Assembly (NCBI RefSeq): GCF_015560805.1
Contig: NZ_JADMSO010000003.1
Location: 124,001 to 188,000, forward strand
Direction: 5' to 3'
Origin: Mediterraneibacter glycyrrhizinilyticus
GTDB lineage: Bacteria; Bacillota; Clostridia; Lachnospirales; Lachnospiraceae
Length of the DNA stretch: 64,000 nucleotides
In this document: piece by piece, positions 3,703 through 15,553 of the stretch
How positions within the stretch are numbered: the first letter of the stretch is position 1
How the letters are laid out: every line of letters starts with the position of its first letter
Program-made: the position numbers and the translations under genes
Notes under the pieces: model-generated
Told to the model about the DNA's origin: nothing
The model's database searches: none
What the model saw: the letters and a program-made list of their open reading frames with translations, nothing else

Positions 3703-3786
3703 CTCTTATATCATGTCCATCATCTGTACCGGGTATTGTGCGCTGTACGAAAACGATGGATCAGACACAGGATTGATTTGGAGTAG

Positions 3787-6700
3787 GTGACGAAGTTGAA
3801 AAATAAGATTAAGCGTCTGTCAAAAGGAGATTTTCATATTCCACAGCCGGAGATCATATTTCCGGAGACACATATTACAATGCGCGTAGGGGAAGGCGAG
3901 AAATACGAGGGTAGCTTTTCACTGCAGAATCAGGGGGAGGGAACCATCCGTGGACTGGTGTACCCTTCTTCTTTTCGTGTGCACTGCGAGGAACAGGGAT
4001 TTGACGGAAACCCTGTCAATATCTATTATACATATGACGGAACCGGATTAGTACCGGGACATGTGGAACACGGTAAATTTACGATCGTCTGCAACGGCGG
4101 AGAGTATGACATTGCATTTACCGCGATCATCGAGAAGCCATATGTGATGACACGGTACGGCAAGATCCAGAGTCTGGAAGATTTCAAAAAACTGGCGTTT
4201 CGTGATCCGGCGGAGGCGGAGAAGTTATTCCGGTCACGGGATTTTTATGAAATCCTGAAGTATGAGGACAAGCGGATCCAGGCGCTTTACGACAATATGA
4301 GAAAGTGGGAACTGGATCAGCAGGCATTGGAAGAATTTCTTGTGGGATGCAAGCAGAAAGAAAAAATCTTCCTTACACTTGAGGAGGAAAGCCGGGCGTT
4401 CACATCTCTGACGGAGCCGCGGAAAGAGATTTTTACGATTAAGAAGAATACCTGGGGATATCTTGCGATCGACGTACATACCGAGGGGGAGTTCTTAAAC
4501 GTAGAGCATACGAAGATCATCACCGAAGAGTTTATCGGCAATTCCTACCGATTGGAATATTTTATCGATACGGAGAAACTGCATCGGGGAAGCAATTTCG
4601 GGCAGATCATTCTGGAAACGCCGTATGAGACGATGCGCTATGAGATCATCGTGGAGAAAGACATTTGCCGGGACGAAGACCGGAGAGCGGAGGATCTGGA
4701 ATTTGCAAGCATCCTGAAAGGATATCTGCAGTATGAAGCAGGGAAAAAAGATCTTACGACCTGGACGGGCGAGGCGCTCAAACGGATCGAACATCTCCGG
4801 AAAGTTGACGAGCGCAATGAGATGTATCTGCTTGTGCATGCCCATATCTGTCTGATCGGAGGGCAGACGGATGAGGCGAAGACGCTTCTGGAGTCCTATA
4901 ACTATAATCGGTTTGCAATCGGAAAAAATGTGGAACTGAGTTCTTATTATCTGTATCTGACCACGCTTTTGAGCAACGATTCGATCGGACAGCGCAGGGT
5001 GGCGGAAGAATTGTCCAAGTCTTACATGAAGCATCCGGAGAGTTGGAAGATTCTCTGCATGCTGATCAATGTGGATTCGGAATACAAGATCTTAAGCGAA
5101 CGGCTCCGCGTGCTGGAGAAGCTGTTCGATGAGGAAAAAGTACACAGCCTGATCTTTTATCTGGAAGCATTTAAGTGCTACAGGGAGAAGAGCTCTTCGC
5201 TGAAAAAGCTTGGGATGTTTGAAGTGCGCGTACTTTCTTTTGCTGCGAAATATAAACTGATGACAAAAGAATTGGCGCTTTACACGGCGAACCTGGCAAG
5301 CCAGCTGAAACATTATGACCAGCATTTGTACGATACACTTGTGCTGGCATATGAAATGTATCCGGAGTCCATGATCCTGACTGCGATCTGCACGCTTCTG
5401 ATCAAGGGGAATGTGATCGACAGCAGCTGCTTTGCATGGTATGAAAAGGCAGTGGAGTCGGAACTGAAGATCGCGCAGCTTTACGAATATTATATGGCGG
5501 CTCTGGATGTGACAAAATTCCACAAAGCATTGCCGCGTTCGGTGTATCTGTATTTTATGCACGGAAATAATCTGGAATATAGGAAATGTTCGTTTCTGTA
5601 TTCCAACCTGATCTTGTATGTGGATGAAAGCAGCGAGATCTATGCACATTACCGGGACGAGATGGAGGCGTTTGCATGGAATCAGCTTGACCGCAGACAT
5701 ATCGATGAATATTTGCGTGTGATTTACAAGCGGTTTTTATCCGAAGAACAGCTGAATCCGGAACGGGTGAAAGCGTTGTATGATATTTGTCACGCGTATG
5801 ACATAACGACGAAAGTTCCGGGAATGAAATATATCCATGTGATCGAAGACGACGGGACGATCTCACAGAAAGTTCCGTGTACCGATAACCGCGCACAGGT
5901 ATTTTTATATTCCAAGACTGCGCGGCTTGTATGGGAGGGAAAGGATGGACGTCATTACACGGATTCCATCCCATATGAGAGCAAGCGTCTGTTTTATGAA
6001 CTGCGGTATATGGATATATGCCGGAAATATCTGAACAGCCTGCGCCTGAACCGGCAGGAAGACGAGGATGTGGAACTGACGTTGGAAGTCGTGCAGGAAA
6101 CCGGACTGGAAAAATATAACGAAAGCGAGATGCTGGCGCTTTGCAGCAAGACGATCCGCGAAAATAATTATGAGAACGATGATTTCCTGACGTATGTCTG
6201 CTTTGAATTGTTTAAGAAAAAACAGTACGATAAAGTGATCCTTACATATCTTGCCAAATATTACTGCGGTGCGACGACCGACATGAAACAGCTCTGGAGA
6301 GAGGCAAAAGAGTATGAGGTGCACACCCATAAATTAGGTGAGCGGATTCTGACACAGATGCTGTTTGCGGAGGAAGTGTTTGCCGAGGCGGCAATTTTTG
6401 AAGATTATTATGCGGAGGGAGCTTATTTCCGGCTGCAGCAGGCATATCTGGCATATATGTCCAGAGAGTATGTGACCGAGAACCGGAAGATCAGTAAAAG
6501 TGTGATCGACATCATCTGCAGGGAGTTTGAAAAAGGTGAGGAAGTAATCGACATCTGTAAGATCGCGGTGCTCAAATATTATTCGACGAGACCGTACAAC
6601 ACGACGCTTCGGAAGACTTTGAAGCAGTTTTTGCAGAATCTCTGCGGACGGCAGATCTACTTCCCGTTTTTCTTATCGTACGAGAAAGACTGGCTGATCG

Positions 6701-7083
6701 AACTGCAGTTGTGGGACAAGACGATCATTTCTTATAAAGGGCAGAAAGGAAGCCGTGTGATGCTCTACTATCAGCTTCAAAAAGGAAGCACCGAGAGCGT
6801 GGACTACTCAACGGAAGTGCTGACGCCGATGTATGAGAATATTTATGTGAAGAAATTTGTTTTGTTTGCGAATGAAAAACTGAAATATTACTTTAAAGAG
6901 ACGATCGACGGAAACTCTTACCGGAGCGACAAGCAAAGCTGTATCAAAGAGGTACAGAAAGGCGAGGACGGACGTTACGGTCGGCTGAACGATATTTTGC
7001 TTTCTTCGGATATGGAGAAAGAGACGCGAATGAAAGCGTATGCGCAGGAAGATATGATCGCCGCGCATATGTTTGAACAGTAA
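3787..7083 (+). CDS. DUF5717 family protein: beta-sandwich plus helical-repeat scaffold
   Basis: A very large soluble protein of 1098 aa with no signal peptide or membrane segment. Residues about 20-115 look like an Ig/MSP-like beta-sandwich (GEKYEGSFSLQNQGEGTIRG, later KFTIVCNGGEYDIAF). A second one is at about 210-290 (FTIKKNTWGYLAIDV, FGQIILETPYETMRYEI). From about 300 to 1000 the sequence is Leu/Tyr-rich helical hairpins of TPR-like character, then a beta-rich C-terminus. It starts an apparent three-gene operon with the DUF5716 and TPR genes (26-nt gap to the next). The start is uncertain: GTG 3787 has GGAG 3 nt upstream, while TTG 3796 has AGGTGA 5 nt upstream. Function is unknown; the layout suggests a scaffold. 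I recognise the family name, not a role. Confidence 0.8.
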   Translation: MTKLKNKIKRLSKGDFHIPQPEIIFPETHITMRVGEGEKYEGSFSLQNQGEGTIRGLVYPSSFRVHCEEQGFDGNPVNIYYTYDGTGLVPGHVEHGKFTIVCNGGEYDIAFTAIIEKPYVMTRYGKIQSLEDFKKLAFRDPAEAEKLFRSRDFYEILKYEDKRIQALYDNMRKWELDQQALEEFLVGCKQKEKIFLTLEEESRAFTSLTEPRKEIFTIKKNTWGYLAIDVHTEGEFLNVEHTKIITEEFIGNSYRLEYFIDTEKLHRGSNFGQIILETPYETMRYEIIVEKDICRDEDRRAEDLEFASILKGYLQYEAGKKDLTTWTGEALKRIEHLRKVDERNEMYLLVHAHICLIGGQTDEAKTLLESYNYNRFAIGKNVELSSYYLYLTTLLSNDSIGQRRVAEELSKSYMKHPESWKILCMLINVDSEYKILSERLRVLEKLFDEEKVHSLIFYLEAFKCYREKSSSLKKLGMFEVRVLSFAAKYKLMTKELALYTANLASQLKHYDQHLYDTLVLAYEMYPESMILTAICTLLIKGNVIDSSCFAWYEKAVESELKIAQLYEYYMAALDVTKFHKALPRSVYLYFMHGNNLEYRKCSFLYSNLILYVDESSEIYAHYRDEMEAFAWNQLDRRHIDEYLRVIYKRFLSEEQLNPERVKALYDICHAYDITTKVPGMKYIHVIEDDGTISQKVPCTDNRAQVFLYSKTARLVWEGKDGRHYTDSIPYESKRLFYELRYMDICRKYLNSLRLNRQEDEDVELTLEVVQETGLEKYNESEMLALCSKTIRENNYENDDFLTYVCFELFKKKQYDKVILTYLAKYYCGATTDMKQLWREAKEYEVHTHKLGERILTQMLFAEEVFAEAAIFEDYYAEGAYFRLQQAYLAYMSREYVTENRKISKSVIDIICREFEKGEEVIDICKIAVLKYYSTRPYNTTLRKTLKQFLQNLCGRQIYFPFFLSYEKDWLIELQLWDKTIISYKGQKGSRVMLYYQLQKGSTESVDYSTEVLTPMYENIYVKKFVLFANEKLKYYFKETIDGNSYRSDKQSCIKEVQKGEDGRYGRLNDILLSSDMEKETRMKAYAQEDMIAAHMFEQ

Positions 7084-7109
7084 CAAGGAGAAAAAGGAGG
7101 CTGGCTGCG

Positions 7110-8393
7110 ATGGGACAGGGCAATATAATAGGATATGAGATCAACGAGAAGACATGCCAGATCAGCTTTTATAATGAACAGCAGCTGGAACCGGAGACGC
7201 TGGAAGTCGATGCGGACAATTACCAGATCCCGCTGATCATCGGGAAACTCAGGGATACCTGGGCGTATGGAAAAGAAGCGAAACGTCTGGCGACGATCAA
7301 AGAGGGATTTGCCGTGACCAGACTTCTCGAGAGGAGTCTGAACGGGGAAAAGATCGAATTTGGGGAGGAGACATATGATGCAGTCTGGCTTCTTTCCAAG
7401 TTTGTGCAGATGTCGCTGCTCTCGTTTCCGCAGATCGACGGGATCGTGTTCACTGTGCCGGAGCTGACGGAAGAACTGGCACAGCTTCTGCGCGGGATCG
7501 CCGTGCGGATGAATATCGACAAACAGCATATTTTTATTCAGGATTACAAGGAAAGTTTCTGCAACTACTTGTTTTACCAGCCGAAAGAATTGTGGCAGTA
7601 TGACGCGGCGTTATTTTGCTGTGACCGAAATGAGATCAAGGCGTATATGCTCCGACGGCTGAAACCGGGGCTTGGCGGCGGCAGGACGACGTTTGTGACG
7701 GTGGATGAAGTGGCGAGCGCGCATATGAAAGAGCTGGCGGCGGTATATCCGGTCCTGAATGAAGACAAGGCGAAAGATGCGGACGCGCGTTTCTGTAAGT
7801 TTATCGAGGGCGTGTTCGATAAGCGGATCGTCTCTTCGGTCTTTCTGACCGGAGAGGGATTTGAGAATAACTGGTATCCGAAGTCGCTGCGCGTGCTTTG
7901 CAACGGGCGGAGAGCGTTTATCGGAAACAATCTGTACAGCAAGGGCGCATGTTATACGGCATACCGGAAGATGTTTATGCACATTGAGGATCCGGTCTAT
8001 TTATCGGAAAGTAAACTGACCGATCAGATCACGGTCAATATGCGGGTCGGCGGACAGGAGATGTGGTATCCGATCGTGTCATGGGGGGCGCAGTGGTATG
8101 AGTCGAACAATCAGTGGGAAGTTCTTCTGGAGGATGTGCAGGATATCGAATTGCATGTGGAATCGCTGATCCAGGGGACACTTCGCACCGAAGTGATCTC
8201 ACTGGATAAATTTCCGCGGCGCGGCGAATATTCGATGCGTCTGCAGATCGAGACATTATTCTTGGATGAGAAGACCTGTAAGATAACCGTGCGGGATGTG
8301 GGATTCGGAGAGTTTTTCCTTGCAACGGATTTTCAGGAGGAGAAGATTATACATTTAGGAGGCAACGATGGGAAGTTTGGTTCTTTGTCATGA
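7110..8393 (+). CDS. DUF5716 family protein, degenerate Hsp70/actin-like fold
   Basis: 427 aa, cytoplasmic. The order of segments follows Hsp70. Phosphate-1-like IIGYEINEKTCQISFY is at about 6-21. IDGIVFTVPELTEE and IAVRMNIDKQHIFIQDYKE match the VITVPA...IAGL...INEPTAA region. YDAALFCCDRNEIKAYML takes the phosphate-2 place. SSVFLTGEGFE takes the adenosine place, followed by GNNLYSKGACYTA. About 300-420 resembles the Hsp70 beta substrate domain, with LDKFPRRGEYSMRLQIE and CKITVRDVGFGE matching the IPPAPRG...V.AxDxxTG pattern. The Gly-rich loops are largely lost, so ATP hydrolysis is doubtful. SD AAGGAGG is 9 nt before ATG. The similarity is my reading and needs a profile or structure search. 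Confidence 0.75.
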   Translation: MGQGNIIGYEINEKTCQISFYNEQQLEPETLEVDADNYQIPLIIGKLRDTWAYGKEAKRLATIKEGFAVTRLLERSLNGEKIEFGEETYDAVWLLSKFVQMSLLSFPQIDGIVFTVPELTEELAQLLRGIAVRMNIDKQHIFIQDYKESFCNYLFYQPKELWQYDAALFCCDRNEIKAYMLRRLKPGLGGGRTTFVTVDEVASAHMKELAAVYPVLNEDKAKDADARFCKFIEGVFDKRIVSSVFLTGEGFENNWYPKSLRVLCNGRRAFIGNNLYSKGACYTAYRKMFMHIEDPVYLSESKLTDQITVNMRVGGQEMWYPIVSWGAQWYESNNQWEVLLEDVQDIELHVESLIQGTLRTEVISLDKFPRRGEYSMRLQIETLFLDEKTCKITVRDVGFGEFFLATDFQEEKIIHLGGNDGKFGSLS

Positions 8394-9135
8394 CAAACAT
8401 GCGGCGCATCCCTACGAGATCACAAGGATCCACTGCAAGATCTTTACAATAGAAGAATTATGTTATTATCTGTGCAACAATCTCTATCTGATCGATTATA
8501 CGATCATGAATGAGCAGCTCTGCGCATGGCTCGATGAAGAGCTGGGGATGCACGATCTGGCGGGAATGCTCCGGGATGTGATCCGGATGCACGGAACAGT
8601 GGAGAAATTCGTTCTGACGATCTTAAAATATTCGAAGATCTATCGTGATCCGGAGATGATCCGGATCCAGAACGTATTGGAACGTCTGAAAAACCAGAAA
8701 GACATTGAGCGGCAGAAATATAAGGCGGACAATCTTCTTGAGAGCGGCGAGATCGAGGAAGCGATCCTCGTCTATCAGGCGATCTTAAATCAGGAAAAAG
8801 ACGAGACGGTGGATGCAAAATTTTACGGACGGATCTATGCCGGGCTCGGCGCTGCATACGGCAAGCAGTTCTTGTATCAGGAATCGGCAAAGATGTATGA
8901 CCGGGCGTATCAGATCTGCGAGGACCGCGCGCTGTTAAAGCCGTATCTCTATGCTTCCTATAAATATATGTCGTTGGAGGAATATCATATCCTGTTGACG
9001 AAACATGACGAGTATGTGGAGATCAATGCACAGATGCGTCAGGAAATGGAAGACATCAAAGAGAATCTGCAGCTGGAATTGAATGATGTGATGCTGGAGA
9101 AATGGAAACGTCAGTACCGCCGAAGCCATATTTAG
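8368..9135 (+). CDS. TPR-like adaptor protein of the DUF5717/DUF5716 locus
   Basis: 255 aa, all-helical in character and without a signal peptide. An N-terminal conserved stretch (about 1-100) is followed by two TPR-like hairpins: ADNLLESGEIEEAILVYQAI and FYGRIYAGLGAAYGKQFLYQESAKMYDRAY (shown in parts; about residues 112-190). A charged helix ends the protein. Its ATG lies 26 nt inside the end of DUF5716, with AGGAGG placed in that gene, so translation is coupled. The tight overlap implies that its product works with the Hsp70-like protein. The specific role is unknown. Confidence 0.7.
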   Translation: MGSLVLCHDKHAAHPYEITRIHCKIFTIEELCYYLCNNLYLIDYTIMNEQLCAWLDEELGMHDLAGMLRDVIRMHGTVEKFVLTILKYSKIYRDPEMIRIQNVLERLKNQKDIERQKYKADNLLESGEIEEAILVYQAILNQEKDETVDAKFYGRIYAGLGAAYGKQFLYQESAKMYDRAYQICEDRALLKPYLYASYKYMSLEEYHILLTKHDEYVEINAQMRQEMEDIKENLQLELNDVMLEKWKRQYRRSHI

Positions 9136-14236: not shown

Positions 14237-15553
14237 ATGGAAGAATGTGTGAAACTGGAGTACGCCGAGACTGCGGTGCCGGTGAAAAGAAGAAAAATAA
14301 AAGGGATATTGCCGTTGCTGTTTGCGGGAAGTCTGGTGATCGTGGCGGCGGATCAGGGGATGAACGCTTTGAGAAAGCCTGACTTGTTTCGAAGAGAGCA
14401 TACGGTAGCCGAAGAGAAAGTGAAAGCGAATAGAACGTTAAAACATCTGTTCGATATGGAAGAGCCGGTCGGGAAGTGTGTGAGTCTGTCAGAAACATCA
14501 ACGGTAAAAATACCAATGGAAGTTTCGGAAGATTCCGAAGCCGCATTTTTGTTGGAGACAAGTATCGATTGGGATTCTTTCCCGACAGGAGAGACAGGCG
14601 GGATGTCCGGTCCGGACGAGGCCGGAGAAGATACAAAGACAGAGGAGGTCATTGTCGTTCCGGATCCGCTGATACCGGACAAAATTCCGACGGGAACAGA
14701 GAATCTGCCGACAACGGATATTCCGTTGACCGATCATCCGACCGTGGATCCGCCGCTGACCGACAATCCGGCAGTGGACCGTCCGACGACAGATGACCCG
14801 GCAGCGGATCGCCCGACAGCAGACGAAAATGACGGTTCCATATCCGGAGACACAGAGGAAGATACGGATCTGGGAGAAGGCGGAAGTTCCGATTCCGGTG
14901 TTCAAGATGGAAATACAGACGGAGATACTTCGGAAACACCGGGCGACGGAACAGCAGATGGAGATACAGCAGATGGAGATACAGCGGATGGCGGTGCAGA
15001 GAATCCTGCTGTTCCCGCGTCGCCATGGGTCGTGGATGAAAGCGGTATGTTATGCAAGATCACTCCGGAATTGCTGGAAATCGACGATGGCGTTTTATAT
15101 CTTCCGGAGGGGATTTTTACAGGAATACGGAAAGATGCGTTTTCCGGTCTTTCCGGAGGTGTTTACGAGATCGTGCTCCCGTCCGCATTGACCGTGATCG
15201 AGAAAGGCGCATTGGCAAAACTGACAGATCTGGAATGGATCGAGGCAGGAGGAAGTCCGGTATTTGCAAGTGAAGACGGCGTGTTGTTTGACGCGGAAAT
15301 GAAAGAAATCCTTGCATTTCCAAGTGGGAAGACCGGCGCATATATTGTGCCGCCTACGGTGCAGCGCATTGCCGCAGGCGCGTTTGAGAACAGCAGATTG
15401 GAACGGCTGGATCTTTGGGAGTGCAAAATGGTGGAGATGGATTCGGGAATGTTCGGGGCAGGAGACGGAAACGGAATGACGATCGCGGTTCCGGGAGGCA
15501 GCCTGGCACATTATGAACCGATTTTTGCCGGATGCGACGTCCAGCTGATCTAA
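14237..15553 (+). CDS. Membrane-anchored leucine-rich-repeat (BspA-like) protein
   Basis: 438 aa. A short basic cytoplasmic head (about 1-22) precedes one hydrophobic segment, GILPLLFAGSLVIVAA (about 23-38), which likely acts as an uncleaved anchor. A region rich in Thr, Asp and Pro follows, with imperfect repeats such as PLTDHPTVD, PLTDNPAVD and TTDDPAAD, then tandem TADGD units (about 165-265). The C-terminal 160 residues are LRR_5/BspA-like: ITPELLEIDDGVLYLPEGI, IRKDAFSGL, IVLPSALTVIEKGAL, IVPPTVQRIAAGAFENS. Such repeats usually face outside and bind proteins or glycans. No sortase motif is seen. The ligand is unknown. Confidence 0.75.
   Translation: MEECVKLEYAETAVPVKRRKIKGILPLLFAGSLVIVAADQGMNALRKPDLFRREHTVAEEKVKANRTLKHLFDMEEPVGKCVSLSETSTVKIPMEVSEDSEAAFLLETSIDWDSFPTGETGGMSGPDEAGEDTKTEEVIVVPDPLIPDKIPTGTENLPTTDIPLTDHPTVDPPLTDNPAVDRPTTDDPAADRPTADENDGSISGDTEEDTDLGEGGSSDSGVQDGNTDGDTSETPGDGTADGDTADGDTADGGAENPAVPASPWVVDESGMLCKITPELLEIDDGVLYLPEGIFTGIRKDAFSGLSGGVYEIVLPSALTVIEKGALAKLTDLEWIEAGGSPVFASEDGVLFDAEMKEILAFPSGKTGAYIVPPTVQRIAAGAFENSRLERLDLWECKMVEMDSGMFGAGDGNGMTIAVPGGSLAHYEPIFAGCDVQLI

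Follow-up and report, generated by a model that had tools for sequence, protein, structure and literature searches.

A degenerate Hsp70 encoded between two helical-repeat proteins in Lachnospiraceae, and a longer multi-Hsp70 operon elsewhere in the order

What does an Hsp70-like protein do when it is encoded between two helical-repeat proteins in nearly all members of a bacterial family? The question is raised by three adjacent open reading frames on the plus strand, 3787-7083 (1098 amino acids, aa), 7110-8393 (427 aa), and 8368-9135 (255 aa), in a 64,000-nucleotide (nt) stretch of Mediterraneibacter glycyrrhizinilyticus (contig NZ_JADMSO010000003.1, positions 124,001 to 188,000), here called the window. 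They encode a DUF5717 protein, a DUF5716 protein, and a small tetratricopeptide repeat (TPR) protein. Comparison of sequences and structure models makes it near certain that DUF5716 is a degenerate Hsp70. The answer favored here, with moderate confidence, is that the three proteins form an ATP-independent client-binding or assembly complex.

The Hsp70 kinship of DUF5716 was established through its orthologs and the structure model, and not through the window sequence alone. Pfam assigned DUF5716_C to residues 112-416 (E 4.8e-100). DUF5716 orthologs of other families in the order match DnaK by sequence at 7e-25, and the ortholog in locus L139 matches PF00012 at 1.9e-16. The AlphaFold model of the window protein retrieved Hsp70-family chains (Foldseek to DnaK, 3.4e-16). 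The best 50 Foldseek and the best 50 VIA-align matches were all Hsp70-family or Hsp70-complex chains, where 7sqc_Z0 and 5mb9_B were taken by inference as the Hsp70 chains of their complexes. Chains of Ssz1 and the ribosome-associated complex (RAC) were among the tied best matches. An actin- or MreB-type filament was rejected on these two sets of 50 best matches. The Hsp70 fold that the first-pass annotation had expected was therefore found, and orthologs and model agree with its proposed order of a nucleotide domain followed by a beta substrate domain. The helical lid is absent, as the protein ends about 10 residues beyond the alignment to the beta part of the substrate-binding domain (SBD-beta). 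The two parts are as follows:

7110-7985, plus strand: nucleotide-domain-like part, aa 1-292, with ATP-site residues lost and a lobe IIB remnant at about aa 206-236 (structure and sequence alignment).
8025-8357, plus strand: SBD-beta-like part, aa 306-416, without a subsequent helical lid (structure and sequence alignment).

The ATP site was then compared over the phosphate loops, K70, E171, and D194-D201. Residue names (K70, E171, D201, and others) follow E. coli DnaK numbering and were placed by motif. In the window protein (P0002), 10 of the 11 checked ATP-site letters are changed. K70 and E171 are kept in none of 123 distinct Lachnospiraceae DUF5716 proteins, a sample that leans to close relatives of the window. 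At nine ATP sites, 74 of these proteins keep none of the residues, 19 keep one, 24 keep two, and 6 keep three. Lobe IIB is also mostly gone: 23 of 78 DnaK positions are occupied in the window protein, 2-23 across the 123 proteins, 29 in L153 of the same family, and 70 and 72 in the two measured orthologs of a longer operon described below. These lobe IIB figures are alignment-based, lie in a poorly modeled stretch, and were counted at shifted positions against a reference DnaK 24 residues shorter than that of E. coli. With the ATP-site residues and most of lobe IIB lost, an active Hsp70 is not supported. It resembles DnaK/Hsp70 (PF00012) in domain order and, through its orthologs, in sequence, but differs in lacking the ATP-site residues, most of lobe IIB, and the lid.

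The longer operon was found in families of the order other than Lachnospiraceae. Its genes run in the order of the DUF5717 N-terminal part, the DUF5717 repeat part (the two form a single gene in some operons), an Hsp70 of about 558 aa (H1), a GrpE fusion with the GrpE domain at its C-terminus, the DUF5716 ortholog (H2), a further Hsp70 (H3), an Hsp70/VWA protein (H4; Pfam VWA domain shown in L139 and L135 only), and a terminal TPR protein related to the third gene of the window. No locus departs from this order: over the extent of each contig or stretch, 18 of 18 are collinear, with the GrpE fusion reached in 17, DUF5716 in 16, and H4 in 13. These 18 exclude L152, which has no operon, and L153, which belongs to the family of the window; L138 ends with the GrpE fusion, and L146 extends no further than H1. 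The long N-terminal part of the GrpE fusion gave no convincing PDB match. True Hsp70s and a GrpE domain stand beside these genes in other families, which counts in favor of the first-pass annotation. H1, H3, and H4 keep 11 of 11 checked ATP-site letters in all 15 sequences, and K70 is absent from H2 in all 10 longer-operon sequences and from L153. Because H2 is already without this lysine in the longer form, its role in that operon is, as judged from sequence, probably not ATP-driven either, and Lachnospiraceae seem to have retained just this role.

Among 60 genomes of the order that lie outside Lachnospiraceae and match DUF5717_N (one of them, G600, below threshold), 58 carry the GrpE fusion; the genomes with the GrpE fusion number 60, from 64 matches minus four with the GrpE domain only. 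Among 60 Lachnospiraceae genomes the fusion was found in none, since all five matches are restricted to the GrpE domain, in frames of 206-245 aa. The loss of the longer-operon ATPases across the family was judged by this proxy, and H1, H3, and H4 were not searched family-wide. The window itself holds the reduced three-gene form, without the ATPases or GrpE of the longer operon, and its genome has one DnaK-size frame, the remaining Hsp70 matches being 335- and 372-aa frames. In the tree, 13 Lachnospiraceae DUF5716 proteins group with H2 of L135 and with L153 (100/100). The operon of L135 still holds the other Hsp70s. The proteins in the DUF5716 position split from the other Hsp70s at 100/100. 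On the grounds of the longer form in several outgroup families and of L135, the three-gene form is taken as derived, and we infer reduction rather than growth as the direction of change. The attribution to Lachnospiraceae made in the first-pass annotation stands for the three-gene form and does not extend to the longer form.

The three-gene system is nearly universal in the family. DUF5716 was found in 195 of 200 Lachnospiraceae genomes and DUF5717_N in 196 of 200, and 193 of the 195 have a single DUF5716 match. Of 60 genomes, 59 have the TPR gene (G327, one of these, is a weak general TPR match). Wider sampling gave matches in 4 of 299 genomes of the phylum, all Lachnospiraceae, with the same result for DUF5716; class-level sampling gave 11 of 291, ten of them Lachnospiraceae and one sub-threshold. 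Because the phylum and class matches are nearly all in the family, the system appears, in this sampling, to be limited to the order. Linkage was counted from recorded positions among 60 genomes (50 for DUF5716, 58 for the TPR gene, and 48 for DUF5717). DUF5716 adjoins the TPR gene in all 50 genomes with both positions, and DUF5717 lies directly upstream of DUF5716 in 38 of 41. The expected linkage was therefore confirmed in these 38, and DUF5717 lies apart in three genomes, two of them at contig ends and one a real exception. DUF5716 and the TPR protein are fused in one frame in two genomes, G341 (684 aa, without profile positions 28-92) and G323 (713 aa).

A divergent class I/II aminotransferase gene adjoins 9 of the 18 longer-operon loci (five of the nine Pfam-checked) and stands beside 15 of 28 Lachnospiraceae stretches, one with an intervening gene; the window has none. 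Because this gene flanks both, the short and long forms seem to share one ancestral place. As a clue to function it was rejected, as it supports the shared genomic place and suggests no function. A mobile origin was likewise rejected. The plasmid search gave no match for the system, and of five matching phage-labeled records, the two inspected (MT835719.1 and MT835486.1; L193 and L194) are named "Bacteriophage sp." and marked UNVERIFIED. Both carry DUF5717, DUF5716, and the TPR gene in order, and this ordered triad together with the UNVERIFIED mark indicates that they are probably bacterial DNA.

Selection was measured in 12 comparisons, three genes against four relatives. The nonsynonymous value (pN) was 0.04-0.18 and the synonymous value (pS) was 0.70-0.85, which is near-saturated. 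The conservation of the three genes is not chance, because pN is low while synonymous change is close to saturation. A functionless relic was ruled out by the same low pN against high pS in all three genes.

The locus layout agrees with the three adjacent genes of the first-pass annotation, with a 26-nt gap between the DUF5717 and DUF5716 genes and a 26-nt overlap between the DUF5716 and TPR genes. The start of the first gene was revised. TTG 3796, three codons downstream of the GTG at 3787 chosen before, is probably the start, since its context, TTG-AA(A/G)-AATAA, is common to the six DUF5717 homologs compared, and for two of them the upstream GTG is unusable, being out of frame in L072 and leading straight into a stop in L077. 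The genes and their putative translation signals are:

3796-7083, plus strand: DUF5717 protein gene, putative scaffold (Pfam PF18984 and PF18983; start context of six homologs).
3785-3790, plus strand: AGGTGA, probable ribosome-binding site for TTG 3796 (sequence; AGGTG conserved in six homologs).
7094-7100, plus strand: AAGGAGG, ribosome-binding site of the DUF5716 gene (sequence).
7110-8393, plus strand: DUF5716 protein gene, degenerate lid-less Hsp70 (Pfam, profile and structure comparison, ATP-site alignment).
8357-8362, plus strand: AGGAGG, ribosome-binding site of the TPR gene, within the DUF5716 frame (sequence).
8368-9135, plus strand: TPR adaptor gene, with a conserved N-terminal part at aa 1 to about 110 and TPRs at about aa 117-186 (Pfam, profiles).

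Both neighbors of DUF5716 came out as helical-repeat proteins, DUF5717 by its model and the third protein by its profile, as had been proposed. Pfam matched the first protein with DUF5717_N (9.1e-215) and DUF5717 (2.6e-100), and the Pfam bit scores for DUF5716 and DUF5717 (334.8, 715.7, and 336) lie far above the gathering values (34.7, 25, and 25). The AlphaFold model of DUF5717 (m81b571ef6a5d) has a mean predicted local distance difference test (pLDDT) of 81 and a predicted TM-score (pTM) of 0.42, with aa 21-120 at only 48-68. It is divided as follows, with aa counted in the 1098-aa frame:

3856-4659, plus strand: two N-terminal beta-sandwich domains with intervening helices, aa 24-291 (AlphaFold model, first sandwich poor).
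4672-5790, plus strand: TPR-like helical repeats, aa 296-668 (model; Foldseek to TPR superhelices, low TM-scores).
5794-5988, plus strand: inserted beta domain, aa 670-734 (model).
6001-6702, plus strand: second helical stretch, aa 739-972 (model).
6718-6945, plus strand: C-terminal beta domain, aa 978-1053 (model).

Its structural matches were ciliary beta-sandwich proteins and TPR superhelices (TM-scores 0.07-0.17 by query), and the DUF5717 sequence profile found nothing solid in the PDB. The model suggests a general scaffold shape, and no kinship to the matched structures is claimed. The third protein gave sub-threshold TPR matches alone in Pfam and clear TPRs as a profile. No 19-residue window in the three proteins reaches membrane-helix hydropathy (maximum 1.37), and hydropathy gives no hint of a signal peptide or membrane helix, in agreement with the first-pass annotation. 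The NCBIfam search gave no name for any of the three.

Taken together, a cytosolic three-protein assembly remaining after the reduction of a multi-Hsp70 operon is the rather probable account of the locus. In this mechanism, the beta domain of DUF5716 would bind a client or the tail of a partner without an ATP cycle. The small TPR protein would serve as its obligate adaptor, and the large beta-sandwich/TPR protein would be the scaffold joining client and complex. The retained set would be the non-catalytic core, a pseudo-Hsp70 with its adaptor and scaffold. The three may form a physical complex, a step that is conditional above all for DUF5717, and both ATP independence and client binding would be properties of that complex.

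Several observations weigh against this account. PF00012 was not matched by the window DUF5716 itself (Pfam, E up to 1), which searched alone against PDB sequences gave chance matches only, and a Lachnospiraceae-only profile found four weak matches, all DnaK, the best at 0.085. The DUF5716 model is middling (pLDDT 67, pTM 0.57; residues 184-199, 208-220, and 290-332 under 50). In the tree, the proteins in the DUF5716 position do not form a single clean clade (3 changes, long branches, odd composition), and the claim is therefore confined to their separation from the other Hsp70s and to the link with L135, rather than a fully resolved H2. The terminal TPR gene was reached in just two of the 18 longer-operon loci (L135 and L139), and the others stop earlier. 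G337 (L185, L186) has DUF5717 apart from the DUF5716-TPR pair, the only clear case checked. In L153, the DUF5717 frame begins at profile position 306 and the upstream gene has no DUF5717 match. Finally, the glycine opposite the adenosine-side glycine of DnaK is kept in 123 of 123 DUF5716 proteins, and the stretch around it is the best conserved (0.60 mean).

Because of this conserved glycine and its stretch, some ligand binding by DUF5716 may persist. The pseudo-Hsp70 could then bind a nucleotide or small ligand without hydrolysis and act as a switch, by analogy with Ssz1, which binds ATP without hydrolyzing it. This alternative is possible although doubtful. The Ssz1/RAC chains among its best structural matches favor it, but most phosphate-side and catalytic positions now carry E, K, L, Y, C, or D, and the site is more decayed than that of Ssz1. 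The ribosome-bound partner of Ssz1 in the yeast RAC is a J-domain protein; Pfam detected no J domain in any of the three proteins here. By another analogy, that of Hsp110 with Hsp70, DUF5716 could pair with the housekeeping DnaK as a co-chaperone, with the TPR proteins as tethers. This is unlikely, as most of lobe IIB, which Hsp70 exchange factors including GrpE contact or grip, is missing, and dnaK lies on another contig in the draft genome of the window. An ATP-driven Hsp70 with TPR co-chaperones, as first annotated, has the fold and the TPR partners in its favor. It is very improbable given the ATP-site and lobe IIB losses described above (10 of 11 letters in the window protein, K70 and E171 in all 123) and the GrpE fusion in 0 of 60 Lachnospiraceae.

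A biological-conflict (defense) role is also quite improbable. PMC7159879 describes GAP1-N2 neighborhoods with a theme of HSP70, GrpE, sometimes a second HSP70, and FNIII fused to DnaJ or TPR; vWA proteins are part of further themes in these neighborhoods. HSP70 and GrpE beside a beta-sandwich/TPR protein are present in the longer operon and absent from the window. The described neighborhoods center on GTPases and GAP1. GAP1-M (PF20014) was found in none of 18 genomes (that of the window and 17 that carry the longer operon), although the GAP1-N2 domain itself was not searched. The longer operon also differs in having up to four Hsp70-like genes. PADLOC gave no match for the three window proteins, and three longer-operon Hsp70s matched one PADLOC model weakly, over the Hsp70 part. 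The near-universal, single-match distribution and the lack of a plasmid match also argue against defense. These neighborhoods (PMC7159879) are the nearest printed system found, sharing parts and, as far as tested, not the GAP1 core. MxDnaK2 of Myxococcus, a specialized DnaK paralog that shares an operon with a GrpE of its own, resembles the longer operon in this pairing; it is described as a working chaperone, and the text available mentions no pseudo-Hsp70 with TPR scaffolds (PMC11019930). In the open-license literature, no function or description of DUF5716 or DUF5717 proteins was found; DUF5717 is unmentioned, and DUF5716 occurs once, in a paper on cancer by its title.

Some further features were observed in these loci. 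DUF5717 is broken into shorter frames in a Ruminococcus faecis draft (L055:5677-8985). H4 of L135 (1339-3383) reads in two overlapping frames, which is real or a draft error. In six longer-operon loci (L138, L141, L143, L145, L148, and L149) a related gene of 375-482 aa comes first, upstream of the DUF5717 N-terminal part, and its protein has sub-threshold coiled-coil-type Pfam matches in three of five scanned. Some Lachnospiraceae carry a further Hsp70 (L191:5201-10236 and L192:7684-9372; 562-567 aa, strong PF00012), which in these two scores best with DnaK and not with H1-H4; that of L191 adjoins a TPR-rich protein of 1104 aa whose DnaJ match falls just below the cut-off. At 14237-15553 of the window, a 438-aa frame shows, by eye, a hydrophobic stretch at its N-terminus and a repetitive region rich in Thr, Pro, and Asp.

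The function of DUF5716 becomes testable once it is named a pseudo-Hsp70 and relatives are known that stand beside a GrpE fusion and three Hsp70s whose ATP sites are intact. The locus is a natural experiment on what an Hsp70 fold does after its ATP cycle is lost, and on what the longer form assembles elsewhere. Lachnospiraceae are a major family of the human gut. There is about an even chance that this whole family made an Hsp70 machine motor-less: the ancestral operon would have encoded three intact Hsp70s and a pseudo-Hsp70 together with a dedicated GrpE fusion, all of its ATPases and the GrpE fusion would have been lost, and the pseudo-Hsp70 with two scaffolds would have been fixed as core proteins for ATP-free client binding.

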